Origin: Branchiostoma floridae
Lineage: Eukaryota; Chordata; Leptocardii; Amphioxiformes; Branchiostomatidae
Length of the DNA: 64,000 nt
Assembly: GCF_000003815.2 (NCBI RefSeq)
Contig: NC_049996.1
Location: 10,682,476 to 10,746,475, forward strand
Direction: 5' to 3'
The translations under genes and the position numbers were made by a program. Positions 1-64,000 of this stretch are shown in pieces (the first letter of the stretch is position 1; each line of letters opens with the position of its first letter). The notes under the pieces were generated by a model, which worked only from the letters and a program-made list of their open reading frames with translations, ran no database searches and was not told where the DNA came from.

Positions 1-1500
1 CTCCTTCAAGGAGACCTTCCATTTCTCACAGCATCTTAAGACTTACCAGGGATAGACTGACGCAGGGTGTGCAAGCCTGATATAAGTGCACTTAGTAGTT
101 AGCTGAGGGAAACAGTGATGTCTTAGAAGCTATTTCTCATCTTGGGCTTTGCCCTGGCACAGGTTTGTGTCATCAATCATCCAAGGGCATCCCATCTTCT
201 TCCAATTTCAACTGTACAAAGTACAGTCATTTCACTTCAAATAATTTAACTTTCACTTAAGCCGAGCCTGTCTTTTGATTTACCTTTTCCTTGCGGTCTC
301 ATTTATCTGCATTTATCACTTCCTGAGTAACACCAGTCTGTACCAGGGTCTGACCACAAGACAAGCTGGTCACATTTACTACGATTTCCTCTCTGCTTCC
401 CCACAACCCTCAAAACCTCTTACCAGGGATGACTAGAGAGCAGGCAAAGTTGGAAGACGTCCAGGTCATGATAAGAAGATTATGATTTAGCAATCTTACA
501 AGCTACGCCTTATAGACAAGACCCACACCTGCATACGGCATTCCCTTTATTGCCAATTTTACAAACACACCTTTCCCGGATGTTCTACAGAATTCAGGAA
601 GTTAAAAATAACTTTTTCCGTGACAACGACAGGAAAGAACAGTAGCAGAACAATACTGGTGCAGACACGGAGGCTGTGCATGTCGTGTTGAGCTAATTTT
701 ACAAACTCAAGAACAAGATGTTTCCTGACGGCCAGCGCTCTGTCAGGAAGTTCCATAGAAGTGAGGATATGCTTCTTGCACGAGCAGACACACACAATGG
801 CAAGACAAGAGGGGATTCTGATAAGCAACATGATATTTCCTTCTGAAGAAATAGATTTAGGAGATTACCTGAAGCAATAACTTGGGATTAAACCGAGTAA
901 CCTACTGGGAGGAAAAAAACGTTACCTTTGCCATCAAGCTGGGAACAGAATGAACAAAAACTGCACCAGCAATTATTCACAAGGCTGTGTTCCTGCTAAT
1001 ATGTATTCTCATCTTTCTTGCACCTGTAAAATACTTTTTAACAACTATAGATACAAACTTTTATTCCCATTTGCCACTATATATAGGATGTCGTAACATT
1101 TTATGTCATGTTTCTTCTCCACAAATGTATATCTTTAGACTAAAAATATAACATCTATTTTGGCTTATGATTTAGGAACATTATGATCAATGATATTGTA
1201 AGGTGAACATCCAATCATGCTTGGCTGGTTTTACTTTTGGGATCTGCATTTATTAGTATGAAGAAGCTTATGGGTTTTCTTTTATACATCAAAGTTCTCT
1301 AGCAAAAGTTTTTAAGTTCCCTGAAAACCAGAAAAACTGGAACGTGTGTTTTATTCTCTGTAAAACTACTGCTTGCCCATATTTCTTGATATCTTTTTCA
1401 ATCAAGTGAAACTGTAAGCTCAAAACATGTATCCACATTTGCTATGTTTACAGCCTCCATATCCCCAAGGCTCCCCATACTTTACCATGATTGCACCAGG
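1..1500. other. Non-coding AT-rich stretch, nothing recognised
   Basis: No exon with convincing splice sites, RNA gene or inverted repeat was found here. The only longer open frames are under 100 codons and have no coding-like composition. Confidence 0.5.
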
Positions 1501-1800
1501 AGTGGTAAGATCACCATTTATGACCTCTGGGGAGTCTGGTATTACTACCATGACCTCCAAATGGACACGAAGGTCAGACTTGCAGATCTACCTGGCATCA
1601 TTCTATAAAACACCTTCAGTCCGAGTTGTCTGGTGGCCATTATGACCCCCAAAGGGACGCCAAGGTCAGATTTGGAGTTCTACTTGGGATTACATGTATT
1701 CCATAATGTAGCTCACCTAGAATTATATGGTGATCATTATGACCTCTAGGGGCTTGTGAAGGTCAAATATTGAGTTCTTCTTGGATAGCCTGCATCCTGA
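1501..1800. repeat. Three diverged tandem units of about 95 bp
   Basis: A pattern of the form 'cca(t)tatgacc(t/c)cc...gaaggtcaga...tctacttgg' occurs three times, centred near 1550, 1640 and 1735, about 95 bp apart and considerably diverged. It reads as an old tandem repeat. Small open frames across it are not convincing genes. Confidence 0.55.
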
Positions 1801-1925
1801 GTTGCCTGAAACATTCAACTCCCATAACATTCTATAACTTTGCAGATATGATTGTGAGTATATGTATAGTGATAATATAACATGACAAATGTACATTCTT
1901 CTGGAGGTCATGGTAAGAAGTTTAA

Positions 1926-3029
1926 CCCTTCGAGCCCGATCAGCCACCCCTGGTGACTTCCTGTGTTGAGCCCGATCAGCCACCCCTACTGACTCCCCCA
2001 CTAACTCATCGGCATTCCTCGGTATTCCCCGGGTGGAATCGGGAAACAGCCTCGTTTTCATGTGCAGGGGATTCCCCTTTGATGGGGGAGGGTTGAAGCT
2101 GTAGTTTCGGAGTTTTTGCCTTGTTTTTTTTGCTCAAAATCACAATTTATTGATTGCCAATTATGCTGAAGAACGTAGAAGGGGCTGTGGCACCACTGAG
2201 GAAGAGATTGACGATGTTTCTAGCACTGGAAGTTGATAAAAACTTCGGCATTTTGACGGTCATTTGCCGGTCCTGTACCATGTGGTAGTATTTACAAGCC
2301 TTTGTTTGGTTTCTTTGCCGTGAAAAAGGAGTAGGTGGGTGTTTTTGGTGTTTATTATAAAGGAGTGAGGGCCATGAGTTTCTGAAATTGTTTTCAAATT
2401 ATTGATCCAGCCAAATTTCTGCTTTGTATTTGTTTTTATTCACTTATGGGGGAGGGCAGCATGTTCAGACATGTATTTACACTTTGAGATAGCAATGTCT
2501 GTTTTGGTTTTCCTCCAACTCATAATTTTGGTGAAATTTTCCTGGTCAAATATTAGGGGAACACTGATAAGGCCCATCTTTTTACAACTGGTCAAGGCTT
2601 TCGGTACTATCTTTGCTAGCAAGAATAAAACAGTTACAGTAACTTACATACATTGTTTGATGTTTTTATTGATTCAGGAATAATAACAAGGCAGTCTAGG
2701 ATAGTTTTCACTTTTTCAGTGACTTGTTGAAATATTATGAGACTTTGTGGGTGATGTTATATACATTTCAAATATTTTTCGAGACTTCAACAAGAATTTT
2801 TTCTGCCCTTTTTGCAGTATTATTCCTTACAAACTAGATACAGTCTTTATCTTGATATATTCATATTCTACAGGTTCTTAGCTTTTCAAAAATGTATAGT
2901 TTTACCTACCTAGCATTAATATAAGTATCTTAACATGCCACAAACAGTTCGTAGGTTGGCGCGCTGAGGACCGACAATTTTAGCAACGATTCCTGTATGC
3001 GCCGAAAATTTTACCCCGTCCTCTAAGGG
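1926..3029. mobile_element. piggyBac-like non-autonomous element with TTAA ends
   Basis: The element is flanked by TTAA on both sides (1922-1925 and 3030-3033). Its ends are inverted: CCCTTCGAG at the left and, read on the other strand, CCCTTAGAG at the right. A TTAA target duplication with CCC-starting ends is the hallmark of piggyBac elements. The 1.1-kb interior is AT-rich, and I found no intact transposase; the open frame at 2402-2683 does not resemble one. A short Glu/Asp-rich frame near 2165-2230 could be a remnant, but this is a guess. The terminal repeat is short and imperfect, so the exact family is uncertain. Confidence 0.55.
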
Positions 3030-3263
3030 TTAACAACTACACATATGTACTGTTTCATCAATTAAATAATCAGAATATCAATGATGGACAGTGAGCAAAG
3101 GATTTATATTTCAAATCAAATTTCCACAGTATCCCCTATAAAGGAAATGAAAGGTAGGTTCCTAGAAACTCCAGCAGTGCCCTGGTGCATTCATTGAAAT
3201 TGTCTTGTCACTTTACTTTGGCACAGTCCCAACACAGTGGTCATATTAACTGCCCACCTATTC

Positions 3264-3520
3264 CTACAGACACAAGCAGAATCCCCAATTACTAGTTATC
3301 ACCCCTAGCCAGTAAATCCCAAGTCCCAACTTGGGCAAAACCCGTCTGTCAACCTCACGTTCACCACAAATCTGCGATGTCCCCACGCGCCCAGCTGTCC
3401 CTGTTGTGTCTGGCAAGGACTCAAAGACAAGGTGAAAGTTCAAGTTAGGCTCCAACTGTCTCACTAATGACTCAACTTTCACACCTTCAATGATATCCAC
3501 TTCTTTTCTTGGACACCAGA
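3264..3520 (-). CDS. Possible exon of unknown minus-strand gene
   Basis: One minus-strand frame is open for about 80 codons and includes the segments VDIIEGVKVESLVRQLEPN and LNFHLVFESLPDTTGTAG. Its mixed polar and aliphatic composition looks more protein-like than the surrounding frames, and GC is locally raised. A possible splice acceptor (...caaactaag) precedes it near 3524, and a weak donor (GAG/gttgac) may end it near 3352. I recognise no domain. It could be an exon of the minus-strand gene whose signal peptide exon is at 41432-41510, or a chance open frame. Confidence 0.25.
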
Positions 3521-3831
3521 ATGCTTAGTTTGAAAAGTTCTCCATGTGTTAAGTTTTATACAACCAAGGCAGTCTTCAGGACCCATCCCTCTGTCCCAGG
3601 ATGGAAATTCGCTTTCTGGGACAGAAAAAATATCACCCCATCCATCCCAAATGGCTGAACTTCATGACAGGAAACTGTTTCAAATCTATTTTCATGAGCT
3701 TAACACACGTTTAGCAAGGAAAATCAACAAACATGGGCTCCCAAACAATGTGTGAGACAGGAAAAATTAAAGCTGGAGACAGCCCTGTATACAACCCAAA
3801 ATACTGCTTTCTTCTTGACTACCCACCAATA

Positions 3832-4520
3832 CAGTGAAACCTGTCCGAGCAACCACCTGGCGCAGGCAACCACCTGCCATCAGAGGACACATTGAAACAG
3901 TCCCGTCCATTTTTACATAGTTAAGACCCCCTCCCAAGCAACCACCTGTCTTCCCCAACCAGCAACCACTTTTTACAGTCCCTAAGGCGGGTTCAACCTG
4001 CCCCCACCAACCAAAATTGATTGACAGCAGCTGGCAGCCAAATTTTATATGCAAAATTATGTGGGCACAGTTACCCTGGACTTTGAGACTTCTTTTCTTT
4101 ATGTCAGTCTTTTCTTTATATCAGTCAAGCTGACTCAAGCATATTAACAATGTGCACAGTGCAAATGATTATCATTGAGAATTTTGACATACTGGTAGAG
4201 AAATTGAAAGCACTTGCTTGGGCTGTTCAAGGAAACAGACAACTACAAAACAAACCATGTTTGATTGCTAGACAAACTCAGCTCTGATTGTTAAACAATG
4301 GTTTCTTGAAGTTTGTTTACATAACAGTATTGAGATTAAAATCTGTGTGCATCTCTTATAGAAATGTTTCCTGGGAACTAACTGAAAGGTGTATATCATG
4401 CAAACCGTATCATTTATTATTTTTTTCCGCCAACCAACCAACTTGTCGGGAGCAACCACCTGTCATCAGCAACCATTTTTGCTCGGTCCCTTGAGTGGTT
4501 GCTCAGGACAGGTTTGACTG
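3832..4520. mobile_element. TA-flanked element with CAGTCAAACCTGTC-type ends
   Basis: Both ends carry inverted copies of an approximately 25-bp sequence (left CAGTGAAACCTGTCCGAGCA, right end on the opposite strand CAGTCAAACCTGTCCTGAGC), bordered by TA at 3830-3831 and 4521-4522. TA duplication and CAGT-starting ends suggest a Tc1/mariner-like non-autonomous element. The interior holds subterminal repeats of 'gcaaccacctg', for example near 3850, 3870, 3955 and 4451. No transposase frame was seen. A related fragment lies at 61575-61651. Confidence 0.7.
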
Positions 4521-4758
4521 TAATAGGTAATTAGACATGACAGGTGGGCGTGTGCAGCGAAGTAGTAAAGCTTATCATAATTCTTAACAAACCAACCAAC
4601 GTTGTATACTGAGGACAAGATAGTTAGTGTCAGGTCCTGATTTGACAACTGGTGAACAAAGCAATGAAATATGACGAAAACCAATTATCCTTTTTCTATT
4701 GTGTAAAATGGCTGAATGAAGCTGGCATAACTTCATCAACATTACAATAAAGGGTTAA

Positions 4759-5012
4759 TGCCCCGGCCCGAGGTGTATATGGTGAGAGAATAATCCCCTG
4801 GTCAGGTGCGATAACCACCGAATAAACCACCGAGTGAGCGTAGCGAACGAGGTGGTTNNNNNNNNNNNNNNNNNNNNNNNNNNNNNNNNNNNNNNNNNNN
4901 NNNNNNNNNNNNNNNNNNNNNNNNNNNNNNNNNNNNNNNNNNNNNNNNNNNNNNNNNTATCGCACCTGACCAGGGCTTATCTCACCATATACACCGAGGA
5001 TAAGGCGGGGCA
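4759..5012. mobile_element. TTAA-flanked palindromic MITE, centre lost in assembly gap
   Basis: TTAA (4755-4758 and 5013-5016) flanks long inverted arms that share the segments gtgtatatggtgaga and cctggtcaggtgcgata. The centre is a 100-N gap (4858-4957), probably because the palindrome was hard to assemble. Target site and structure fit a piggyBac-like or other TTAA-inserting MITE. Open frames across the gap are artefacts. Confidence 0.75.
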
Positions 5013-5016
5013 TTAA

Positions 5017-7365
5017 CGTTATTATCATATAGCCTATCCAACTGACAGTTATTTCACACAAATTCATTTATAACAAATAAACACTTTAATACATTACATA
5101 AAAATACATTTGCAATATATATATTGTACAATAGTGTCTATATATAATACAAACATTAAACTATTTCATCATTATCATTTAAGTAATAATTTTAACTAAT
5201 CATCTGTTTGTGAGATAGCATATCAGCATCAACATGTGGCTTATTTGCAATACAAACTACATGTATTAAGTGGAGTCCTGGTACCCCCCATGCAGAGCCT
5301 TTTCACTTGGGCACGACAAAGTACGTATATATGAAGTGATTTAGGAAGGTACCGGCTTAATCACGTTAGAAAGCCATAATGAAAATGTGTAAAATCGGCA
5401 TAATTCCTTTTCAAGTATCCCTATATTCCCCATGTGGAGCCCTAATTAACATAACCAATCAATCATAATATTTTTGACAGTTATGCATGGTTTACACACA
5501 AACAACAGTACAAAAAAAATTCGTGACTGTCCCCTGTATAATGGTGCGGTCCAAAAAGTGGTCGGTTATTAGAATAACCGACCACTTTTGAGGTTACTGC
5601 CTGATAACCCATGGGAAATGGGGGCCTCTGATTGGCCAACTCCATCTGGCTATATGATAATTGATGTTAATCACTGTTATCAGCATATTTCATAGAAAAC
5701 GGGAAACAATTCTTTTCAACTTCCTCCAGTTTGCCCGGCTTTCAGGCTCATCACAGAGATCTCGGTACCCTGAGGCTTGTATACAGTCAGGACTGTGTGT
5801 TATTTGTCTATTTTCATTTCTTGACGGTTAAATCTGACAGCAAACATTTCAGCTACACTGCCCACTTCTGGGAAGGATCACACATTCCTTTCTGCTTCCA
5901 GTTCTAGGAACTTCTTTCACTTTCTTTGTGTAGCCGTGGCTAGCTGTAGGTTACATAAACAAGAGTCTACTAGTAGATAAAATTTGACCCAGTGGTCAAG
6001 GACATTCAGCTTTGGCAAGAGCTTGCTTGTTTGTCAGTTGGTAGATTGATTGTCTTGTCAGTTTGTTTGTTTGTTTATTTGGTTGTTTGGTTAGTTGGTT
6101 GGTTGCTTGGTTAACGTATTGGTTACTTGGTTGTGAATCCACTATTAACATTTTTAGAAAGGGTTTCAGCTTTTAGTACATACACCACATATTGCACATT
6201 ATTCATATTTTACAGAGATGAACATTTGCCCAAAACAAGTTATAAAATTTGCCTGGCCCTAAGTTTCATACAAAGTTTTGGCAAGACTTCTCTTTTCCTC
6301 ATTAGCAAAATCCCACATGACTGAGACAAGGTGGGTGTTACGTACTCAGGAGAGTGGGGCTGCCAAGGTCATTGTCACAGTTCCCTGGAGACTCACTGGT
6401 CCTTCATGGAGGAACCAGGAAACAGGCAGTGTTGAATATTTAACAAGCCTCCCTCAGACTCATCAAGATAACAGCTGATGACTTTTGCTTTTCCTCACAG
6501 ACTAAATGTCAAACGACTGTTTGCAGAAGTGAGGCATTAGAAGGCAGTGAAAGTTTCTGCAACCTGATAAAGCTATTAAGGCGAGACTATCCATCATCTT
6601 GACGTATTAAGTAAAGAAGCTTTCGCTTTCTAAGTCTCAGTCTACTTAAGTCCCAAATCTTAAAGTGCTAAGGATCATGTTATGGTGTTCTCATATATGA
6701 AATGATATTGAGATCATTTTTTTGGGGGGGGGGGATTGTAGCTTAGGTAAAGTTTCAAATAAGGTTCTCTGCACTCATCTGAGAGATTTGTATCTTGCCA
6801 ATGTCTCAGAATTCCTTCTGCTATCTTCTCAAGACAATGCTTACTGGTTCTACTTAATAAGACTACTAGGTGACTTACATTAGCTTGAAGTTGTGCCCCC
6901 AACAATGTCATTGTATCCCATCCAAGATTGCATGCGTAAAGAACACTTTTACCCTGCTTGAAATCACCCCTGCTACTATTTGAAAATGGACCGGCCCTGT
7001 AGGGCATAATTTGTCAGTCACATTTCAAAGAAGATCGCAAAAATCAGAAACAAATCCTTTCATCTTCGCCCAATGACATCACTGCATCCTAGTTGGGAAC
7101 TGGAGTTGACGTCTGTTTAAGCTTTATTGCCATGGATTCTACACATAGATAGATCAACTATTCGAAATAGGGTCAATCCCTTTTATTTGATGTCTACAAA
7201 ATTCTGCAACAGCGCAAATACTAATTTTCTGGGCTAGAACTCAACATGTACTTAGACTGTAGGGAGGTAAGGTAGCAACTAAGAGAAATACATGTGCAAA
7301 ACTGTAAGTAAGGGATGTCTGACAATTTCGAATGGAAAGTAAGGTTGAATGTATATAATATAAGC
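5017..7365. other. Non-coding stretch with one hairpin and a GTTT-rich tract
   Basis: No gene is supported. There is a near-perfect hairpin at 5554-5589, where both arms contain aaaagtggtcggttatt. A GTTT/GGTT-rich low-complexity tract lies at 6055-6135. Poly-G after poly-T sits at 6717-6735. Short open frames at 6127-6478 and 6714-7007 have no recognisable features. Confidence 0.5.
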
Positions 7366-7574
7366 ATAGTTCACCTTTATCCGTGTCGTAACCTTTATCC
7401 GTTGTTTTAAATACAGGGTTTTTAGGGATTCTTAGTCGAAATAAAGCTTTATTTTGAAATATTTTGAAAAATGTTGCAGTTTGAAAGCACCATACGTGGC
7501 CTTGATATCCCTTAATACCCTGTTTTTAAAAACAACGGATATAGGTTACCCCGTGGATAAAGGTAAACCGGTGA
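7366..7574. mobile_element. Foldback MITE of about 210 bp
   Basis: Inverted arms pair 'cctttatccgttgtttt...acagggttttta' at 7409-7440 with 'taccctgtttttaaaaacaacggatataggtt' at 7517-7548. The outer arms both contain ttcacc and acctttatcc. The centre is about 75 bp of AT-rich sequence. The outer edges and target duplication could not be fixed. Confidence 0.65.
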
Positions 7575-8194
7575 ATTCGTAAATAAAAGAAAAACTCATG
7601 AGAAAACCACCATCTTCCTGTGATTTCCTTAAGATCTGTAATAAGGTACTTTATCTATTATACTTTACAACTGTACTTTCATTAAGGTAGAAGAGTTACC
7701 GATGTATCATTATGTATTTCTTTATGTAACATCAATATAACTCCACCAGATGCCATAATGCTGCCACATCAAAACAGCATTCTTTGTGTTTGTTGCTTCG
7801 GGACAAGTACCTTTTACAAATACGGAACCAGAATTATCCAGATTTTAGATAATCTAAATTTTCCACTTTTTGCGCTGCAAACACATGCTCTCCGTTTGCA
7901 TTACTGGCAGCGTTTTAACCATGGACCAAATGATGATGAATCTGAGTGCTACAAACTAAAATGAATTTACAGTAAGTTTGATTCAACATGTACAATGTAG
8001 GTCTAGAGGCCCGCACAAGACTAAACAGATTAGTCCATCAGATGACAAACAAAGAGATACAAAGCAAAGAAAGCCAGCTGTTCACTTCATTACATAAAGC
8101 ACTTGCATCAGAGCAAATCTTCTTAAGTAAAGACGAAGGAAGAAAAGAGTTCATTGAAACATAATTGTGTTTTGAAAACCCTTGAGTGGAACGA

Positions 8195-24334: not shown

Positions 24335-24770
24335 CTAGCCCATTAAAATATGTGTTCTGTGCATTTCTTCACTGTATCACGCCTAATCAAAACATCTCAT
24401 GCTGACATAGACAAATAGTATGATATAACAAAAGTACTGTACCATTGTCAACTGCCATGGGGCCTATATGTGTGTGTTTGTTTAAACTAGAAAAGCTTCA
24501 AGCAGTGCACATTGTGACAATTCAGGCATGGTCAGCAAATATAGCAAAACTAACATGGTCCATAGAAGTGATTCTTTCAAAACAAAGCCTCTTTTGTGAT
24601 AGTACATTGCTTTGTCTTCAATAACTGTGGCAAAGATCATCTGACCTGAAATGAAGCACACAAAATAGTATACACAAACTTTTGAAACTAAAGCCGCAAG
24701 GAAAAGGAGAATTATTTTTCTGTAGTCTTCCTGAATCAAGTCAGCCAATGCTTTGAATTGCTGCTCGCAA

Positions 24771-25022
24771 AGAGTCTAGTGCTATTTTAAGAAGCTCCTG
24801 CACTGTTCTGCATATACTAGTTCTACTTTCATTGGTACATACATCTAACATAGAACAGCACAACTCAAAAGCTTCAACAGAATCAACACAACACTGCTAA
24901 AAGAGTCTGAGCTATTTTAAGAAGCTCCTGCACTGCATATACTAGTCCTCCTTTCATTGGAACATACATGTACATCTAACATAGAACAGCACAGCTCAAA
25001 AGCTTCAACACAACATTGCACT
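24771..25022. repeat. Tandem duplication of ~125 bp
   Basis: Copy 1 (24771-24900) and copy 2 (24902-25022) share 'ctattttaagaagctcctgc', 'catatactagt' and 'atctaacatagaacagcaca', with small indels. Confidence 0.85.
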
Positions 25023-48564: not shown

Positions 48565-48695
48565 TATTTTCCAAGCAGAGGTTGGGTCAGTAGATGGTAG
48601 TGGTCATGATGTTTACTGACTCCTTCGTGAGGCAAGCGAGCCAGTAAAAATCCCGACCACTTCTATCTACTGACCCAACCTCTGCTTGGAGAATA
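48565..48695. mobile_element. 131-bp foldback MITE (gaggttgggtcag type)
   Basis: Long inverted arms: ccaagcagaggttgggtcag and tagatggtagtggtc at the left pair with gaccacttctatcta and ctgacccaacctctgcttgg at the right. The outer ends 'tattttcc' and 'ggagaata' share the tccaagcag core with the family at 48928-49305, but the interior differs, so it is a related subfamily. Flanks cactaca/cactgca resemble a decayed target duplication. Confidence 0.8.
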
Positions 48696-48927
48696 CACTG
48701 CACATGCTAATGATGTTTGAGACACTCTAGGTGCCCTGCATTTTCTAAATTTCCAGCATGCAAACAGAATGAACAAAAAGGGCTATGGACAAATTACAAT
48801 GTACAGATCCTGTAGCAATGTCCACGGTCAAAATGTAGAAATGCAAAACAGAAATGCAGGTAATTGACTGACATGCAGCCACTCGCTCATTAGTTTGAAA
48901 TGCTAATTGTGATAGGATGATCTGTAG

Positions 48928-49093
48928 TAATCTCCAAGCAGATCCTACGGTAGCATAAGATAGTATCAAAAGCTGGCAGAGGAGTGAAGCCGGCAGAGGA
49001 GTGTGTTTGGCAAATGGACACCTCTTAACTGACTACACTCCTTGGCGCAGTTTGGTACTATTTTATGCCATTGTAGGATCTGCTTGGAGATTA
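48928..49093. mobile_element. Foldback MITE with exact 9-bp target duplication, copy 1
   Basis: Ends TAATCTCCAAGCAGATCCTA and, inverted, TAATCTCCAAGCAGATCCTA. Arms continue through 'agtatcaaa' and 'ctggc' toward a small centre. The 9 bases gatctgtag directly flank both sides (48919-48927 and 49094-49102). A 9-bp duplication with long inverted arms points to Mutator-like (MULE) non-autonomous elements. There is no coding capacity. Confidence 0.92.
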
Positions 49094-49153
49094 GATCTGT
49101 AGGCATGTTGAAACAGGTGTTGGAAAGATAAACTGACTCCACTATCTACCTGC

Positions 49154-49305
49154 TAGTCTCCAAGCAGACCCTACGGTGCCTACAGATAGTATCAAAGCTG
49201 GCAACTGAGTATAGCCGGCACGGTGCCCGTTTGACTCCCTTTGGCCGGCCATACTCCTTTGCCAGCTTTGATACTATCTTTAGGCACTTATCTGCTTGGA
49301 GACTA
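49154..49305. mobile_element. Foldback MITE with exact 9-bp target duplication, copy 2
   Basis: Ends TAGTCTCCAAGCAGA at both sides, inverted. The arms share 'agatagtatcaaagctggca' and its complement near the right end. The target duplication tctacctgc is exact (49145-49153 and 49306-49314). This copy is only 60 bp from copy 1 but has its own duplication, so it was a separate insertion. Confidence 0.92.
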
Positions 49306-50432: not shown

Positions 50433-53400
50433 ATGCAGACTGTAAAAGTGTGGATAGTGTTTGGGCTGTTGTATCTGGTCGCATATGTCGTTGAAGGTAA
50501 GTGTTTGTTCTCTTATCAAGTTTTACTGCCCAACGTTTCCTGTACTAGGGGACAGTGTTTTCTGACATGGCACGTACATAAGTTTTGATAATTAATACGC
50601 AGAACTTGCACGTACAAGTGTTTGGGTAGTAGATATGCAGGTCGTCCAGTTTTGGCATTGCTCAACGCCCCCTCAATTCACTAACCTACTCGTTGACAAT
50701 CACAGATAAAACTCTCAAAAGATGATGATGCACTTATTTGTATAGGACATCGCTATCAGTTATAAGTACATAACGTTGTGTTATGTTGTCGAAACTACAA
50801 CAAGAGTGAATTTTGAGGAACAAGCGTCAAGACCGAACCCGGAAATGAAATCCGAGACAAATGTTACCTTATATGATGTTGACATAAGAGTATACAGGTG
50901 GTTGACACGGCAAGAAAGATTTGTTTCTTGAGGCAACAAAAACTATTAACGTGTCTTATAACAAAAGTATCGAGATACAAGTCCAATAGGAAATGGATGA
51001 ATTTAGAATTCAACAAACACCATCTTGCAGCGCAGTGGCCAAGTTCTTGCCCCGCGTTCTATTCAAACAATATTGTTCAAAGGTGTAACAATCACCATGT
51101 GATCATTCATGATAGGGATATTATACTGGCGGTCCTAGGACTGAAGATTCAGCTAGGACCAAGCTGTTGACTTGAAACTCGTTTGAATGTTTTGACCAAA
51201 TATGTGTTTAGTTCCACCGAGAATTAAATTCTACTTCCGCCGTGACCCGTCCTGCATTCAACCTTTGGTCAGACTGGGAATGGTTGGAAACCAACGACAT
51301 TTGGCTTTCGCAATACACTTCCTGAACAATTAAATATGTTCACGTCTTTAAAACACTTGATCGTCTAATTGCTAGAAGGAGAGAAAAGCCAGAGAAGCAC
51401 AGAGGTAAATGTGGCAAACGAGCATTACTTGTATGTGATATGTTATCTGTGGTCTGACATTTTAGTTTATGGCCATTTTGGTTTATGGTTTATTTGCATC
51501 TATAGTTCAATGTAAGTTATAAGTTATAAGTTCAATGTTGGACTTCTATAGTTCCATAGTTCCACACTTCTATAGTTCCACCCTTGGCTAGGTCGACACA
51601 AAAAATGAAGATGAAACGTTCCAAAACACTTCATATCCAATGTTGAATCAGAGAAAAAATGCTGTATCTTGTTTTTAATTGACTACAGGGAAGGAAGTGT
51701 AGTTCCCCTACACATAATAATCTATAATTATCCTTGTACTTGACCTCCTTGGGAATTCCCAATCTTTTCTTGACTTTTGTACACGTCATGTATGTCCCGA
51801 GGCTACGCAGCTAACTTGCCTAACATACATACCCATTTGCTATAGTCAAAAGTGCCGAGTGGTTACTGGTCACCTGCTCAGCGGTGTTAAGTTTTAGGCA
51901 AGAGTGTGGTCCCAAACATGATTGAAAGATCTCGTGTAACTATATAGGCACAATAAGGAATGCAAATGATAACGATACTTTGCCTCTTGTACTCCTTTGT
52001 CCCTTCCATTCTCTAAATCACCTGTTGTACCTTTCCCAGACTCTTGTGCCCAGAATACGACCGCCCAAACGGCAACCAATGGTAGCAGTACTCCAGCTCC
52101 CGTTACCATGACGATACAGATGATGAACATGACAGTGGCACTTTCTACATCTGACGTCACGAATGCCACGACAGGAGGCACAACCAAGTCAACATCGACG
52201 AACACGACACAGCAGTTTTTGGTAAGCGCGGGTGCAACTCCGCCAAACACAGTAACCCCCGGTTTTGCCGATGTCACCAACATAACCAACGACGTCACTA
52301 CCAGCAAGGCTTACGCAACCACGTCACCGGTCCTTGTTAATGTCACGACAACCGGAATGGGTGATACAGCGACAAATTCCTCAACGTCAGAGAAACCACC
52401 ATCTTTGCTTACCACCACACCTGGGAGTTCTACTGTTGCCGTGATACCTGCGAGTTCCGCGGTTGCCATGACAACTGAAAGTTCCACAGCCCGCAGTTCT
52501 ACCGTTGCCATGACACCCGGGAGGTCTTCGGTTGCCATGACGCCCGGTAGTTCTTCTGTTGCCGTGCCACCCGGACGTTCAACGGCGCCCATGATCTCGA
52601 CTAGCGCAATGGCACCTGATAGTAACTCCTCTGTGACGTCACAGGCCATGAGCACCCCGACCAATGAAATGGACCCGTCATTACCATTAGGGCTTCCGAT
52701 CGGAGCATGGATCGGGATCGGGGTTGGAGGCGCATGCGCTCTCCTGATGTTGATTGTCGTGCCTATCGTCTTGTGGAGAAGAAAGCAACAGCAGGAAGAC
52801 ATATCGTCTCATGTGTAAGTTTTAGGTATTTCGTTCATTAACATACATAGTACAATCAACAACGATGTCCGGACGTGCTTTTTATTTCTTTCTCCTTTCA
52901 CACATTATTATATATGATTAACGAATTTTAGGAAAGGTGGGGCTTTTCGTCTCCCTCTGCTTCAAAATAAAGAAGTCAAACTCAACCTGTTAGGAAATAG
53001 CCAACACTAGTATTAGAGTAGAATATTGTTCATAACTGTCCATTGTCACTTGTATATCTACTATGTTTATACCATGTACTTGCAATTAGCCCTCGAGCAC
53101 GAACTTGCAAATAAACTTCTTCTATCATTATCAGCAATGTGTTCTTGTTTGTCTTGCCTACAGAGCCAGCACTCCAGACCTGTGGATGAATGACGTCATG
53201 CATGGCCGGCCGTCCACCGGCCTGGGACCGTCCGTCCGGCTGAGCAGGATCGAGATTGACGGGAACTTGTACACTTTCACGGTAGGATTTACTTCTGTAG
53301 TTTTACCGCATTTGCGGAAGGATTGCTATAACAGGTGACTTTCACCTTTTCAAGATGTTAACCCGGAGACCAGACTGTAAAGTTTGATCCACTCACATCG

Positions 53401-54130
53401 GGAAGGACCTTAATCTCCAAGCAGATCCTATAAAATGGCATAAGATATTACCAAACTGGCTAACGGAGTGTAGTCAGCCAAGAGGTGTCCCCATTTTACG
53501 CCGGTAGCGAAACACACTCCTTAGCCGGCTTCACTTCTCTGTCAGCTTTTGATACTGTCTTATGGTACCGTAGGATCTGCTTGGAGATTAGAAGGACCTC
53601 TATTATTTTCGATAAGTGTTGCGGGTTCTTTAACGTGCTTGAGGTGTGGTTCTCCCAAACACGGGACCTCTATTTAACCTCCTATCCGAGCGACGGCCCT
53701 CAGAACTAGGTACTTTCACGGTAGTGTTACAGGGTAATTTCACGGTAGTATTTAAGGGAAATCTCCAACCTGAACATGTACTTCTTTTCATGCTCACAGT
53801 ATATCATGTATCATTTGCTATGACCGTGCATTCATGGGTCGAGCAAGAAGACTACATACTTAATATGTAAGTGGGTCGCAAAAAGGGTGTCGAAATAAAT
53901 CGGCACCGAAAGTGATAAATCGTGCCTGACGTGCGTAGTTCCTCATATTTCATGCGTTATGTTCTCAGCCACTCGGGAAAGAAGCAGATCCGGCCGGAGC
54001 AAACGAGTCAAAGAACAGCGATGATGGGTCAGCGACCGACAGGTCAACATTCCGACCGAGCCGCACTACAGTTTCCACCACGAACGAGACCAATCGACCA
54101 TCTGTTATTGAAGAGGCAGCCAATGAATGA
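50433..54130 (+). CDS. Mucin-like single-pass membrane protein, four coding exons
   Basis: Exons: 50433-50496, 52040-52814, 53164-53281, 53969-54130; all are GT/AG with matching phases (1, 2, 0), giving 372 residues. Exon 1 encodes a signal peptide (MQTVKVWIVFGLLYLVAYVV). Exon 2 begins EDSCAQNTTAQTATNG and is Thr/Ser/Pro-rich with many N-X-S/T sites, predicting a heavily glycosylated stalk. It includes about six 9-residue repeats of the type TPGRSSVAM (roughly 52420-52600). It then has a membrane segment (IGIGVGGACALLMLIVVPIV) followed by the stop-transfer WRRKQQQ. Exons 3 and 4 give a cytoplasmic tail of about 95 residues with one Tyr motif (NLYTF) and an acidic end. No SEA or EGF module is seen. 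If intron 2 is retained, translation stops at 52816-52818 with a tail ending SSHV. The gene faces the related mucin gene on the other strand. Function is unknown; a mucosal or cell-surface role is inference. Confidence 0.8.
52421..52600 (+). repeat. 27-bp coding repeats in the mucin stalk
   Basis: Imperfect units encode variants of (T/P)PG(R/S)SSVAM: near IPASSAVAM, TARSSTVAM, TPGRSSVAM, TPGSSSVAV and PPGRSTAPM. Short units rich in Ser/Thr/Pro are typical of mucin stalks and prone to length variation. Confidence 0.8.
53340..53705. repeat. Dispersed repeat, split by a MITE
   Basis: The left part (about 53360-53401, containing acccggagaccagactgtaa and gtttgatccactcac) and the right part (53600-53705, containing gttgcgggttctttaacgtg and caaacacgggacctct) form one unit interrupted by the 53411-53590 MITE. 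A second, truncated copy lies at 57685-57793. I recall similar text as a common repeat in invertebrate genomes, but cannot name it. Confidence 0.6.
53411..53590. mobile_element. Foldback MITE with exact 9-bp target duplication, copy 3
   Basis: Ends TAATCTCCAAGCAGATCCTA at both sides, inverted. Exact target duplication gaaggacct (53402-53410 and 53591-53599). It lies in intron 3 of the plus-strand mucin gene and inside an older dispersed repeat, so it is the younger of the two. Confidence 0.92.
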
Positions 54131-54197
54131 ATCAAAGTGCACTATTAAAACTTCCCCTGTCATGAATCAAAGTGCACTATTAAAACTTCCCCTGTCA
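54128..54197 (+). repeat. Perfect 35-bp tandem duplication starting at the mucin stop codon
   Basis: Two identical copies (54128-54162 and 54163-54197) of a unit starting tgaatcaaagtgcactatta. The first three bases of copy 1 are the TGA stop. Each copy carries ATTAAA, a common variant poly(A) signal, so the duplication may provide two polyadenylation signals right after the coding region. Confidence 0.9.
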
Positions 54198-55399: not shown

Positions 55400-56262
55400 G
55401 GCCATGTTGATTTGATTATATGGATGACATCCTCTGGGAACTCCAAAACTGATGCGAGCGAGCGAATAAAAAAAAAGTTTGGCCAAAAAAAAAAGTTGAC
55501 TTCAGTATGAAATCTAAGTGGTCAGGAAGGCTGAACATAGGACTAAACACACATAGTATGGTATACCAACAGTTAGGTGTAGGGACCAGTACATCGTACA
55601 GGTGCAAAACATTTTTTTCTTCTTATTGGACCGATCCGAAAAAAAAGACCTGAAATAAAATCAGTGGAACCGGTTTCGCCAATTAGAAAATGGACACACT
55701 ATGTCGGCAAGCGTTTGGGGTCTTACCGGGCTAAGAAGACAACAAGAGCGAAGTCGAGTAGAGTTTATAGTCATTTGCACCAAGTTTCTACAGTCAAAGG
55801 TACAGAAACTTGATTACTTGGAGATGGGATTTTAAAACGCCAGTGGGAGTCAGATAATCCACCAAACAGATTCCTTTGTAGCAAAATTGACCAATTATCA
55901 TTGTTTTGAGTATAGCAAATTATCAAGTTTCCACAGACAATCAAGTTCAGGTCCGGATCTGGAAATGATCCTCCGGACCTGAACGGAACCTGTACCTAAA
56001 TTTTCTGTACTAGTACCTACCCCTACCAACAATAGATTTTTTTTCACATCTTATTCTTTGACTTTAGATTTATTTTGGCATTCTATGGCATTAGTTATCT
56101 GTTTTTTTAATACTTTTTTTTTCAAATTTACGGCATGTATGTGCTCATTTTACAGCTACTTTGCACAATTTACTGTGTGGTCAAAAACTTTTTTTTTTTT
56201 TGGAAATGGCCGAAAATTGGTGCGAGCGCGGATGTCATCCATATAATCAAATCAACATGGCC
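55400..56262. mobile_element. 863-bp element with perfect 33-bp terminal inverted repeats
   Basis: The 33 bases at 55400-55432, starting ggccatgttgatttgattat, recur as an exact reverse complement at 56230-56262. Inside both ends lie 'gcgagcg' and a poly-A/T run with 'ggccaaa' or 'ggtcaaa'. The interior has no transposase. Arms this perfect imply recent activity or gene conversion. The target duplication is unclear, so the superfamily is not assigned. Confidence 0.85.
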
Positions 56263-58214: not shown

Positions 58215-61200
58215 TTATATATGGAAGGCCCACCGTCTGGCTTTCTGTGCCCTCAGCATGTTCCTAGCCCGTTTGGCCATACAGACCACCAGCAGGATGA
58301 TGAGCACCAGCACAGCGGCCGTACAGCCCACGGCAAACCCGATGATCTGTGCCTGGGTGAAGGTGACTTCACACCGGTCCCCTCGGTACCAGGACAGCGT
58401 GTCTGCTGGGCAACTGTAAGAATAATCTATGCCTTAGTGCTTTTAGCATGGAATGTTTAAATACTGTTAAGAGTCATTTGGATTTATTATCCTTTGTTTG
58501 ATGCTTTTATGACGAACATTAACCGTTTTAATTGTAATTTAAAAGAACGATATCGAAGAAATGTGAGCATTTTCCCTTGTAATGCATCACATACACAATG
58601 CAGCCCTAAGGCTGCTACGTTTTACAAATAGATAATGATTCTCATTCTCTATAACCTCAGCTTTGCGTTGAGATGGGGTACGCCACGGATTATCTGCAGC
58701 ATTCGATCCAATACACACCGAGTCACGTGTCTAATTCGCATAAAGTGACATAATTGGAGAAAAGACGTGCGAGGAGCGGAAGCGGAGGAGTGTAGCGATG
58801 ACACTAGAAGAAGAAGAAGATTGGAGGATTGATGAAGAAAGTGAGCCAGAAATTGATCATCGAAGAAGTAGGACTGACCTGCATTTTGGGCCCTGATCCA
58901 CAATGACAGTACATGTGCCAGCGAAGCAGTAGTTTTCCACACAGACGCACTCCGCTATCACCACCCCGGGGAACTTCTCACCCAGCTGGCACACGCCCCC
59001 CTCCCCACACGTTAGCGTACAGAAGGACGGGTCTGTGGACACCAGCTCCAACTCTGCAACAAATTATTTAAACTCATCTCTTGAAAGACGCAAAGTTACC
59101 GTGGCCGATATCAACAATGTCCAACACACTTACTTTTCTGCTCAAGACACTTACTTTTCTGCTCAAGACACTTACTTTTCTGCTCAACACACTTACTTTT
59201 CTGCTCAACACACTTACTTTTTTCTGCGTGAGACACTTACTTTTTTCTGCGCGAGCCACTTTCTCTTCTGCGCGAGCCACTTACTCTTCTGCGCTGCACT
59301 TACTCTTCTGCGCTGCACTTACTTACTTTTCCTGTGGTGCGCACCCCTCCCTTTATCAATGGATGGTCCCTGATTCAGGCCAAAGGTCACAAAGACCGCA
59401 TAAAATGTAGTATTGACCGCATGTCAATCCTAAATTATCCTCCTTCGGATGACCCTATGAAATGACCCTTACCCTAGCGCGTTTTTGTGGATTCAATTTA
59501 ATTCTTTTTGGTCTTTAGTATAGCATTTTGACAATGCAGATCGATAACGACAAGTCTCGATTTGATCATCACAACATCGCGTTTTGTTGCCATCACAACG
59601 TATTGTCAACTTTGAAAACAAATTCTGCGCGCGTTTCTGGCGCGCAGCTTTAAACTTTTATTTACCAGGGTTTACATAAACTACCAAGGAGCTACCAAGG
59701 CCTACCTGCCTTCTTACTCCTATCTACAGAGGAGTTAAGAGCCTCTGCCTAGATCCTNNNNNNNNNNNNNNNNNNNNNNNNNNNNNNNNNNNNNNNNNNN
59801 NNNNNNNNNNNNNNNNNNNNNNNNNNNNNNNNNNNNNNNNNNNNNNNNNNNNNNNNNNNNNNNNNNNNNNNNNNNNNNNNNNNNNNNNNNNNNNNNNNNN
59901 NNNNNNNNNNNNNNNNNNNNNNNNNNNNNNNNNNNNNNNNNNNNNNNNNNNNNNNNNNNNNNNNNNNNNNNNNNNNNNNNNNNNNNNNNNNNNNCTACAG
60001 AGGAGTTAAGAGCATCTTCCTGGCTCACGTAAGCCCTGATAAAGAAAATTTTATAGCTGTGCGCCAGCAACGCGCGCAGAATTTGTTTTCAAAGTTGACA
60101 ATACGTTGTGATGGCAACAAAACGCGATGTTGTGATGATCAAATCGAGACTTGTCGTTATCGATCTGCATTGTCAAAATGCTATACTAAAGACCAAAAAG
60201 AATTAAATTGAATCCACAAAAACGCGCTAGGGTAAGGGTCATTTCATAGGGTCATCCGAAGGAGGATAATTTAGGATTGACATGCGGTCAATACTACATT
60301 TTATGCGGTCTTTGTGACCTTTGGCCTGATTCAGGGACCATCCATTGATAAAGGGAGGGGTGCGCACCACAGGAAAAGTAAGTAAGTGCAGCGCAGAAGA
60401 GTAAGTGCAGGCAAAGAGTAAGTGGCTCGCGCAGAAGAGTAAGTGGCTCGCGCAGAAAAAAGTAAGTGTCTCACGCAAAAAAAGTAAGTGTGTTGAGACA
60501 GAAAAGTAAGTGTGTTGAGCAGAAAAGTAAGTGTGTTGAGCAGAAAAGTAAGTGTCTTGAGCAGAAAAGTAAGTGTCTTGAGCAGAAAAGTAAGTGTCTT
60601 GAGCAGAAAAGTAAGTGTCTCGAGCAGAAAAGTAAGTGTGTTGAGCAGAAGAGTAAGTGTCTTGAGCAGAAAAGTAAGTGTGTTGCACATTGTTGATATC
60701 GGCCACGGTACAAAGTACTGAGGAGATTGTAAATACATCCACTTATTCATCAGTCTCTTTATCTGTCTATAGCTATCTACCTGTTATCTACATGTCAATC
60801 CCACCATTCATCTATCCATCCATTCAATCAATCAATCAATCAATTAATTAATCAATCAATCAATCCGTCCTTCCTTCCATCCATCCATCCATCCGTCCAT
60901 TTATCCATCGGTTGATCCATCCAGCCAGCCACCCATCCATCCATGCATTTAATAAACTAAGTATCTATCTATTCCATGTCCTCAAACCATTCATCTTTAT
61001 GATTTATCTATCTATCTATCCATCACCCATCCATCCATACACATGTACATACGTACATAGATACATGCATCCACCGTCCATACATCTATCTATTTATCCA
61101 TACATTGTAGTCTTAAGCTTTAACACTGTCCGTAGCTTCACCTACCGTCCGTTGTAAGCGCTATAGGCTGTACTGCCTGGCTGTCTGTGACGTTCAGTGT

Positions 61201-64000
61201 ACCGTTGAAGGTGCCGTTGTTAATGGCCACCTGCAGGTTAGTCTGTACCTGCTGCTGGATCGCGCTGTCAGACTCCGCCTGGTCCGAGGCGAACACAGCC
61301 GCGTACCTGGCAACTACACTGCCTGGGCTGGGGATAGGAGGAGTTTCTCATGTAAGTACTTTCGTCAAGAATCTTCAATGGTACGTTAATGGTACCTATA
61401 CACTGTACAAAGAAGTGTCACAATCATTGCAGTATTACATGTGTTTAGAATCATTTGAACAGTAAATCTAAACGTGCGTGGCTTACCTCTGTAATGTTTA
61501 TGTGAATAAAGAATAGTGGGTACTGTAATAATGTGTGCATTGAATAGTATTTTCTCTGTACAAGAGGTCACCCATCCATAGTGGCCACCTGTCTATAGTG
61601 GCCATATTTGGCCAGTCTCTTGAGTGGCCACTATAGACAGATTTGACTGGCTTTGTGTATAACGTTTTTTCCTTTTTCACTTGCTTGTAACGGTGTTTGT
61701 AATTAAATGGCATAATGATAAATCATAGATGGATTGTTATAAATTTGATATGTGTGGACAGTTGTGTTATCAATAAAAAAAAGTATTGGTGCCCTGGAGC
61801 TGTCCTTGGTGCTGAAGCAGAACTTCCGGCTATTGCATCTGAGGTTCTGTAGACATGATGATCACGATTTTGGATGGCAGATAACTTTTCTGATCAAAAA
61901 CAGATTGGCTCAGGTTTAGCTTACCTTGAAATTAGTCTAGTGTGGCGTGTTTGTCGGAGACTTTGAAAAATGTTATAGCTCAAGAACGTATGAATGGATT
62001 TTCATTATTCTTGTGATGCATTCATCAGCATTGACTTGCAAGAGTCCCCAAAAGATCTCCGGATCAAAATAAGGCACAAAGAATAAGAAGACACTGATAA
62101 CAATAGTGATAAAAAGATAGAACAATACTAAACTTTCAAGTGATAAAAAGAGATTTACTTACACGAATTTGATTATAATTANNNNNNNNNNNNNNNNNNN
62201 NNNNNNNNNNNNNNNNNNNNNNNNNNNNNNNNNNNNNNNNNNNNNNNNNNNNNNNNNNNNNNNNNNNNNNNNNNNNNNNNNTGTAAGCTGTGGGAACAAA
62301 AACATGTCTATATGTCAAGATGAGTACGTATGTTGCCCTTCATTGGTTTATAGCCAAGTATACAACATATAACAACACTTCAATTTATCAACTTTAATTT
62401 GGTACTGGGCACACAACAAACAATGCGTATGTCACAACAAATACATTGACTTACCGATTCCACCACCTGTGTGGCGAGGGTTGTGAACTCCACAGAATTC
62501 CTGTCATCGTAGTTTGAGTTGAAGTCCAGTTGCATGGTGAGGCCTGCTGGTACCACTTTCCGCGGACCCTCTGCCGTGACACGAAAGTACAAATAATGGC
62601 AATTCTTAGAAAACAACGTCCTAGTGATACCTCTCAGAGAAAATTAACCTTGCTATCGTTTCGTTAAGTTAGCCACCTTCCTCCGATAGAGCCCTATTTG
62701 AATCTTAATGGTGTCACCCATACATTCCTCTTACCTAATCACAGAACTAAGGGCAGTTGATTGAAAAGGAACTTACTACAGACTATCTATCTGACGTATA
62801 CGAACTTTTCTGAAACAAGAAATAGCAACGAAGTTGTACCTGGCCTAGCGGGAGTTGTAGGAAGCGCAGTCGGGACGACTGTTGTTGCGGTGGTTGGTGC
62901 TGGTGTGGTTCCATTGGTGGCCGCCTGTGTTGTAACGTTTTCTGTTATGTTTACCACTATAGTTGTTGTAACTGCTGCTGTCGTGTTGAATGTCGTAGAT
63001 GTTTTTGATGTTGAACTTGCAGTCGTTGGTGCCACTGATGTTGTTAGATCTTCTGGGGTAGCAAAGAGTGCTGTCGGTGTTGTCAGCGCCGAAGCAGTCG
63101 TATTTGCCTCTGCAGTAGCATTCATTGTCGATGTTGCAGTTAACGTTGATGCAGTAGCGTTTAACTGTGTTGTTGTGATGCTTGCTATCTCTGTCACCAC
63201 TTCTTCTGTGGAGAAGACTGTTTCAAACGTAACTTCTGCGGTTACTGTTGTAGACATGTATTCTGTTGTGGAAATGTTCGGAGCCTGCGTCGTAGGGCTT
63301 GCAGTTACAACAGCCGCACTTGGTGTGTTGGTTGTAATGTTAGTTGTCGCGGATGTACTCTTTGTAGCTGTTGTTGTTTCCATTGGAGTTGTAACAGCAA
63401 TGGAACTAAAGGAGGTTGTAGCAGGGTCAGTCGGAAAGGAAACAATTGTGCTGGGAGTATCACTAGAGGTCTCTGGGATAGGAGAAATAGCTAGAGAGGG
63501 GGAGACTTCTTCGAGAGCGCTTACTGTTGGAGTCACAGACGCTAGCTCAAGTGTGGAAGAAACAGCTTCTATGGTAAATGTGTCGGTGTTTGTTTCCGAC
63601 AATGGGGACGTAATGGACGTTGAAGCAGGTAGAGTTGAAGAGTCAATCCTGGTAGAAACCAAGTCTGTGAATGTAATGAATGTCGAGGTGAAGAGCTCAG
63701 ACGACATGACAGAAGCTGGTGACAAAATGGTAGCTGAGGAAAACGCGTCCACGAAATTAGTACTCATAGTTTCAGCAGGCAAAAGCTCGGATACAGAACT
63801 CGTAAAAGCGCCCTCTATTGTCGACGTCACAAAGAGAAAAGTGGATAGCGGTGTGGCATCTAATGTTTGCATGAAAGTGGACGAAATAGTATCTGAAACG
63901 TCGACGGTCTGCGTAAGAGAAATCGTCTCTGGAGTTTCAGTCATGGGAGTTGTTTTGAGAGTGGATTCCTCCAGTCCAAAAGTGAGTGTAGAGAGGTCTA
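58215..64000 (-). CDS. SEA/EGF-like membrane mucin, 5' part beyond window
   Basis: Exons on the minus strand: >64000-62840 (Thr/Ser-rich, at least 387 residues), 62570-62455, 62287-62163 (mostly assembly gap), 61327-61146, 59053-58879, 58413-58215 (to TAA) or to 58234 if spliced on. Phases are consistent (1, 0, 2, 1, 2). After the mucin stalk comes a SEA domain (from about [16 protein letters not shown]) with the self-cleavage motif PG/SVVARY. A Cys-rich EGF-like region with 11 Cys in about 60 residues follows ([11 protein letters not shown]...[13 protein letters not shown]...CSC...C). Then come a membrane segment ([20 protein letters not shown]) and a basic tail ([16 protein letters not shown]). 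In such proteins SEA cleavage leaves two non-covalently held subunits at the surface. The signal peptide and start lie outside the window. The frame is still open at the edge, so the ATG at 63944 is not the real start. The intron between the SEA and EGF exons holds a 1.6-kb foldback transposon. Confidence 0.85.
59097..60710. mobile_element. Foldback-like element, long arms of ~21-bp subrepeats
   Basis: Left arm 59097-59675 and right arm 60029-60710 are near-perfect inverted copies, ending TACCGTGGCCGATATCAACA and its complement. CAAAGT flanks both ends (59091-59096 and 60711-60716), a 6-bp target duplication. The outer part of each arm is a tandem array of about 21-bp units (cttgagcagaaaagtaagtg type): about 10 on the left, 15 on the right. 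The centre carries a repeat (ctacagaggagttaagagc) collapsed into an N gap (59758-59994). Long arms with tandem subrepeats are the defining structure of Foldback (FB) elements; whether this is truly FB-related is unknown. The Leu/Thr/Phe- and Lys/Ser/Val-rich open frames are translations of the array, not genes. Confidence 0.9.
60784..61096. repeat. (ATCC)n / (CAAT)n low-complexity region
   Basis: Degenerate tetranucleotide repeats: runs of ccatccatccatc, caatcaatcaat, and tctatctatctatc. They lie in the intron of the minus-strand mucin gene. Confidence 0.9.
61575..61651. mobile_element. Fragment of a TA/CAGT-type element
   Basis: 'agtggccacctgtctatagt' and, inverted, 'gtggccactatagacag' with 'atttgactgg' at the end resemble the right part of the 3832-4520 element (caggtttgactg). 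It is an internally deleted relative in an intron of the mucin gene. Confidence 0.5.
62182..62281. other. Assembly gap (100 N) inside the SEA domain exon
   Basis: On the minus strand an acceptor (tgttcccacag) is followed by CTTACA and then the gap. After the gap, a short coding stretch (taattataatcaaattcgt) ends at a strong donor (gtaagt). The gap therefore hides most of one exon; 100 N is a default gap length. Confidence 0.75.

Follow-up and report, generated by a model that had tools for sequence, protein, structure and literature searches.

The window, by which we mean the whole stretch of 64,000 nucleotides of Branchiostoma floridae DNA that was analysed, holds a mucin-type gene on its minus strand, and one intron of this gene is occupied for the most part by an inverted-repeat element (1,614 of the 2,092 intron bases as assembled). 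The gene comprises a Ser/Thr-rich open stretch (62842-64000, minus strand), a SEA domain that is recognised when its two pieces are joined (Pfam score 27.6 vs. a cut-off of 26.4; the second piece by itself scores 15.7, under that cut-off), and an EGF-like exon, whose Pfam score stayed under the cut-off in both searches. Together these features confirm the location in a mucin pre-mRNA that had been proposed earlier by a reading of the letters without database searches (the sequence-only reading). Removal of the intron (61145-59054) leaves a reading frame that stays open across the exon junction. The element is separated from the downstream EGF-like exon by 43 intron bases, which may be enough space for a branch site. 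The splice sites lie outside the element, so this copy did not create the intron; intron gain of the introner type, an idea taken from an excerpt of PMC9860276, was rejected, as a larger intron encloses the duplication. The coordinates of the features are collected in Table 1.

Two further observations concern the surroundings of the gene. A degenerate tetranucleotide tract (consensus CCAT) lies in the same intron, not far from where the element ends on the right (60804-60948). On the strand opposite to the SEA/EGF gene, a plus-strand open frame of 281 amino acids (51973-52818) is Ser/Thr-rich, has a hydrophobic segment near its end and resembles a membrane mucin; its transmembrane matches in Pfam are under the cut-off.

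Table 1. Features of the element and of the adjoining parts of the host gene (positions in the window)
Feature	Position	Strand	Remarks
Host exon, EGF-like	58879..59053	-	Cysteine-rich; 3' limit inferred from GTCAGT donor
Host intron	59054..61145	-	GTAGGT...TTGCAG; 2,092 nt including N
Left CAAAGT copy of target duplication	59091..59096	.	Direct reading
Left tip	59097..59121	+	TACCGTGGCCGATATCAACAATGTC; outside array; first 24 bases same in right arm
Left array	59122..59330	+	About 10 units, mostly 19-23 bp; on minus strand GTAAGTG plus variable part
Left arm core	59331..59675	+	Without tandem repeats; near-identical to right core until about 59636, then decaying
Inner left sequence	59676..59757	+	Small imperfect palindrome at 59712-59740; stops at gap
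Assembly gap	59758..59994	.	237 N; possibly unmerged contig overlap
Right arm core	60029..60372	-	
Right array	60373..60685	-	About 15 units, five more than left
Right tip	60686..60710	-	Terminating ...GGCCACGGTA
Right CAAAGT copy of duplication	60711..60716	.	
Host exon, second part of SEA domain	61146..61346	-	5' limit approximate

Outline of the element and its unequal arrays

The element spans positions 59097-60710, exactly as the sequence-only reading had it, and begins with TACCGTGGCC on the left. Its left arm extends from 59097 to about 59675 and its right arm, inverted, from about 60029 to 60710; the arm lengths of 579 and 682 bp given earlier match the limits of the main BLAST piece. 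When positions 59097-59757 were compared with the reverse complement of 59995-60710, the arms were identical at 591 of the 610 aligned positions, and their outermost 24 bases did not differ at all. The hexamer CAAAGT abuts the element at either end as a perfect 6-bp direct duplication; direct reading and alignment both uphold this earlier claim. The two copies adjoin the very ends of the repeat, the place expected of a target-site duplication. Since identical 6-mers were rare among random position pairs of the window (66 of 198,588, or about 3 in 10,000), the duplication is unlikely to be accidental.

A scan of the window for paired TA(C/T)(C/G)G ends, 80-8000 apart, with 10 or more of 14 end bases in agreement and the same 6 bp on either outer side, hit this element alone. 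BLAST with a word size of 7 and E values up to 1 detected no second copy in the window: its hits were parts of the element and stretches of 14-21 nt that look like chance. No part of the window matched Rfam at gathering scores. Exact matches were absent for a 23-nt piece of the end in viral and prokaryotic contigs, and for a 27-nt piece of the core in viral contigs; these collections are not expected to contain an animal element, and the negatives are therefore uninformative. In bases 1-59000 there are 11 other inverted pairs of at least 30 nt within 6 kb, the longest arm being 84 nt.

Other inverted repeats of the window deserve a separate mention. A cluster at 48565-49290 and 53431-53595 has arms of 43-84 nt that are 71-92% complementary; some of its pairs lie inside 48.5-49.3 kb, others pair with 53.4-53.6 kb, and the cluster may represent a family of short inverted-repeat elements of greater age. 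A perfect 33-nt inverted repeat (55400-55432 and 56230-56262, 797 nt apart) is possibly the terminal inverted repeat (TIR) pair of a second element.

The arms of the element differ mainly in the number of tandem units. Counted by the GTAAGTG motif (at most one mismatch) outward from the core, after a first step of 4 nt and with the final unit of either arm, which runs into the tip, included, the collinear units of about 21 bp number 15 on the right and 10 on the left, as the sequence-only reading had estimated. Tandem Repeats Finder gave 9.7 copies of a 21-bp unit on the left and 12.6 copies in a part of the right array. The surplus appears in the alignment of the arms as two large gaps, one of 84 nt (four units) and one of 21 nt (one unit). 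Individual inner units, 17-23 bp long, can be told apart, and their order is common to both arms: collinear pairing of five inner units per arm requires 4 edits, and 2 of the 120 possible orders reach this value, the collinear one included, the tie being due to two identical units on the left. These five were chosen by us out of the 10 and 15, the outer units being too alike for ordering. The surplus of the right arm is located among the more uniform outer units. The common order and the position of the surplus indicate that the arms are copies of each other, and a natural reading is that the unit number changed where the units are alike, through slippage or unequal exchange. Tandem repeats of other kinds are also present in the window, namely a 35-bp unit in two perfect copies (54127-54197) and a 131-bp repeat in nearly two copies (24769-25010).

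Long inverted arms, short tandem arrays, an unequal number of units and a target-site duplication directly flanking the arms are among the marks of a foldback, and these are present at this locus. The earlier observation of a foldback-like element, with inverted arms of 10 and 15 units, therefore holds.

The central gap and the identity of the arm cores

The middle of the element is interrupted by the assembly gap, the borders of which are alike: 28 of 34 bases are identical between 59724-59757 and 59995-60028 (z = 7.7). Of 19,536 pairs of random points in the window, one scored above the gap borders (8.2; the next pair 5.8), and the borders of the three other gaps in the window reached similarity scores of at most 3.5. 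Because the borders resemble each other and the left one contains a small palindrome, we think that the two contigs may adjoin here unmerged. The element would then be about 1.34 kb long rather than 1.61 kb, and if the gap is such an overlap, it would be palindromic nearly to its middle. On the other hand, 6 of the 34 border bases differ, and the scaffold assigns this gap an individual size (237, as opposed to 100 for the three others).

Identity of the arms is not spread evenly along the cores. In a comparison of 59294-59693 with 60011-60410, mismatches occur at 2 of 346 positions up to 59639, at 6 of 36 in 59640-59675, and at 8 of 18 beyond. The best split among the first 382 columns falls at 59636, and none of 5000 permutations reaches it; we fixed the limits of the mismatch counts, as well as where the tested stretch ends, after viewing the alignment. 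Sequences that are near-identical on the outside, and diverged yet alike on the inside, form the pattern expected from conversion or templated repair between the arms. The break near 59636 suggests arm-to-arm homogenisation by one of these processes. A differing constraint on the inner core is an alternative cause of the break.

The predicted hairpin and the GTAAGT motifs

The sequence-only reading had expected a very long double-stranded hairpin in the pre-mRNA, and folding predictions agree with it. For minus-strand RNA of the element, the predicted fold has an energy of -1103.9 kcal/mol, vs. -327.7 to -393.8 kcal/mol in 8 other stretches of the window (1,377 nt each, equal to the sequenced bases of the element, and chosen without composition matching). 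In the predicted structure, 591 of the 621 pairs link the two arms, and the longest unbroken helix measures 261 bp. RNA editing of such a hairpin, or production of small RNAs from it, is plausible on this model. With some 590 predicted pairs at a distance of 43 nt from an exon, the hairpin would also offer a natural test of how duplex RNA is tolerated in an intron.

A separate matter is the GTAAGT motif, which corresponds to the intronic half of a 5' splice site. Read in the direction of the gene, nearly all left-arm units carry it, giving ten such motifs (59133-59326), 79-272 nt upstream of the acceptor, and one left-arm unit has GAAAGT in place of GTAAGT; the units of the right arm present the complement of GTAAGT on the gene strand. 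On both strands together, the motif occurs 26 times in the element, vs. 25 times in bases 1-59000, and its tandem multiplication is to be counted as one event, not ten. In the modelled transcript, the left-arm motifs could act as splice decoys, or could be concealed within the duplex.

Assignment of the element and comparison with known foldbacks

On balance, we lean towards the view that the element is a non-autonomous, foldback-shaped cut-and-paste DNA transposon, probably mobilised in trans by a transposase of the IS3EU/GingerRoot type. This placement is proposed from a few end bases and represents the best match among the groups compared. The ends are of the TA..TA type (TACCGTGG..CCACGGTA, i.e. 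TAC..GTA), and both they and the 6-bp duplication agree with the IS3EU/GingerRoot signature. According to an excerpt of the paper describing IS481EU (PMC10045372), TA..TA ends are invariable in complete IS3EU families, whose duplications are usually 6 bp long, and GingerRoot elements combine 6-bp duplications with ends that are mostly TA..TA. For IS3EU families of rust fungi, an excerpt of PMC12730594 gives 6 bp and the ends TAYGG..CCRTA; the end of our element, TACCG, matches TAYGG at bases 1-3 and 5 and differs at base 4, the motif being stated for fungi only. Judged by the published TIR lengths compared, namely 36 bp for the IS3EU-related Styx (PMC10853768) and "longer than 30" for the rust-fungus families (PMC12730594), an IS3EU element with arms as long as about 600 bp would be out of the ordinary.

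Points against the placement are the single copy known and the absence of a transposase match. In the four long open frames that overlap the element, every Pfam match stayed under its cut-off, and none was to a transposase, whether a DDD/E enzyme of the IS3/IS481 kind or another; a non-autonomous copy would be expected to look like this. One match below the threshold (E 0.077), to a cysteine cluster described as associated with KDZ transposases, comes from a frame that crosses the repeat array and is taken as chance. Among the papers listed, the titles and abstract openings described no IS3EU foldback, which is far from proof of absence, and the listed papers on foldbacks did not contain the 16-base end of the element. 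The copy is a well-formed foldback transposon, probably ordinary in mechanism and unusual in its end signature.

A foldback of the Mutator superfamily (FB/NOF, Tetris or Tm1 type) with an atypically short duplication is unlikely, if worth serious consideration. We know of no Mutator mark in the form of TAC..GTA ends. The anatomy is very close to that of Tetris and Tm1 in having a tip, tandem units of unequal number and an inner domain, and Mutator seems to be the home of most foldbacks, with exceptions, according to PMC4079207; an excerpt of PMC10045372 ascribes duplications of 4-10 bp to IS256/MuDR at large. The duplications of two published Mutator foldbacks, however, are 8-10 bp long, in Tetris (PMC4079207) and in 45 of 53 complete Tm1 elements (PMC3169594), and the 6 bp observed here do not match them.

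We are more doubtful still of a foldback derived from one of the other groups that make 6-bp duplications, namely Polinton/Maverick, hAT6 or Dada. Polintons have long TIRs, and Dada elements produce duplications of 6-7 bp; the ends of Polinton/Maverick are AG..CT, and those of hAT are CA-like. The TAC..GTA ends of the element are unlike either of these, although for Polinton the 6 bp agree, and Pfam found no match to an integrase or polymerase in the four long open frames. Duplications of 6 bp are ascribed to Polinton in the excerpt of PMC10045372 and to hAT6 in that of PMC12730594.

It is very improbable that the structure is a one-off inverted duplication without mobility, flanked by an accidental hexamer: a single copy is known in the window and the abrupt change of identity could be a duplication boundary, but the perfect duplication at the exact repeat ends, the identical 24-base tip beyond the arrays on both sides and the absence of a source copy from the window all speak against it. 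Equally hard to credit is an assembly artefact, in which one real arm would have been assembled twice, in opposite orientations, around the gap with its mutually similar edges, as one arm has five units more than the other and there are point changes between them, the flanks diverge beyond CAAAGT, and the exons on either side give one open frame when joined.

For the preferred foldback of IS3EU/GingerRoot type, the most likely mechanism would be the following. A transposase supplied from elsewhere would bind the tips and the repeated units and join the arms; it would recognise the TACCGTGG ends and cut the target with a 6-bp stagger. By analogy with Galileo, the 21-bp units might each be bound by the transposase or by a partner. 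Insertion would have been into the intron that separates the SEA exon from the EGF-like exon in the minus-strand mucin-type gene. Copying from arm to arm would then keep the arms alike, which would explain a near-perfect identity that stops abruptly near 59636, and the unit number could drift via slippage or unequal exchange among the similar outer units. In the pre-mRNA, the modelled pairing of the arms into a long duplex would be spliced out with the intron.

Foldback is a shape, not a clade. A foldback with IS3EU-type ends, if true, would mean that transposase lineages unrelated to each other came to this shape separately, in favour of long arms with arrays of transposase sites as a convergent solution. 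The copy also seems to preserve a sharp-edged record of arm-to-arm homogenisation. It is a rather speculative thought that an IS3EU/GingerRoot-derived foldback marks a further independent origin of long minisatellite-bearing arms, in addition to those in Mutator and in Galileo of the P superfamily, and that its left-arm GTAAGT units, set at regular intervals in the duplexed intron shortly before the mucin exon, could by their number tune the splicing of this exon.

The sequence-only reading had likened the element to the FB elements of Drosophila. This likeness stands for the shape, as FB elements also have foldback arms with unequal subrepeat arrays; membership in the family is unproven, and the 6-bp duplication and the TAC..GTA ends fit IS3EU/GingerRoot. 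FB elements have 9-bp duplications and units of 10, 20 or 31 bp, in contrast to the 6 bp and the units of about 21 bp found here, and Galileo differs from the element in its ends and in a duplication of 7 bp. Published descriptions allow further comparisons. Tm1 of root-knot nematodes (Mutator/Foldback), many members of which are MITE-like, resembles our element in composite TIRs that combine short tandem units, variable in number, with an inner domain, but its commonest duplication is 9 bp, its units are 13-15 bp long and its 7-bp tips are asymmetric (PMC3169594). Tetris of Drosophila virilis similarly combines a TIR made of a tandem array and an inner domain with a non-coding middle, and is unlike the element in its 8-10 bp duplications and its units of about 220 bp (PMC4079207). 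Galileo, of the P superfamily, is a case outside Mutator in which long TIRs likewise contain tandem repeats, and binding sites for the THAP domain of its transposase were identified in these repeats (PMC3688188). Related to IS3EU but different from the element are the repeat TCAST10 of Tribolium, one half of which is hAT-like and the other IS3EU-like and which at times forms inverted dimers (PMC5844308), and two oyster satellites listed as IS3EU-like (PMC8268682). With IS3EU/GingerRoot itself, the element has in common the TA..TA ends and the 6-bp duplication (excerpts of PMC10045372 and PMC12730594), and it differs from them in arms of about 580 and 680 bp that carry unit arrays, with no recognised coding part.
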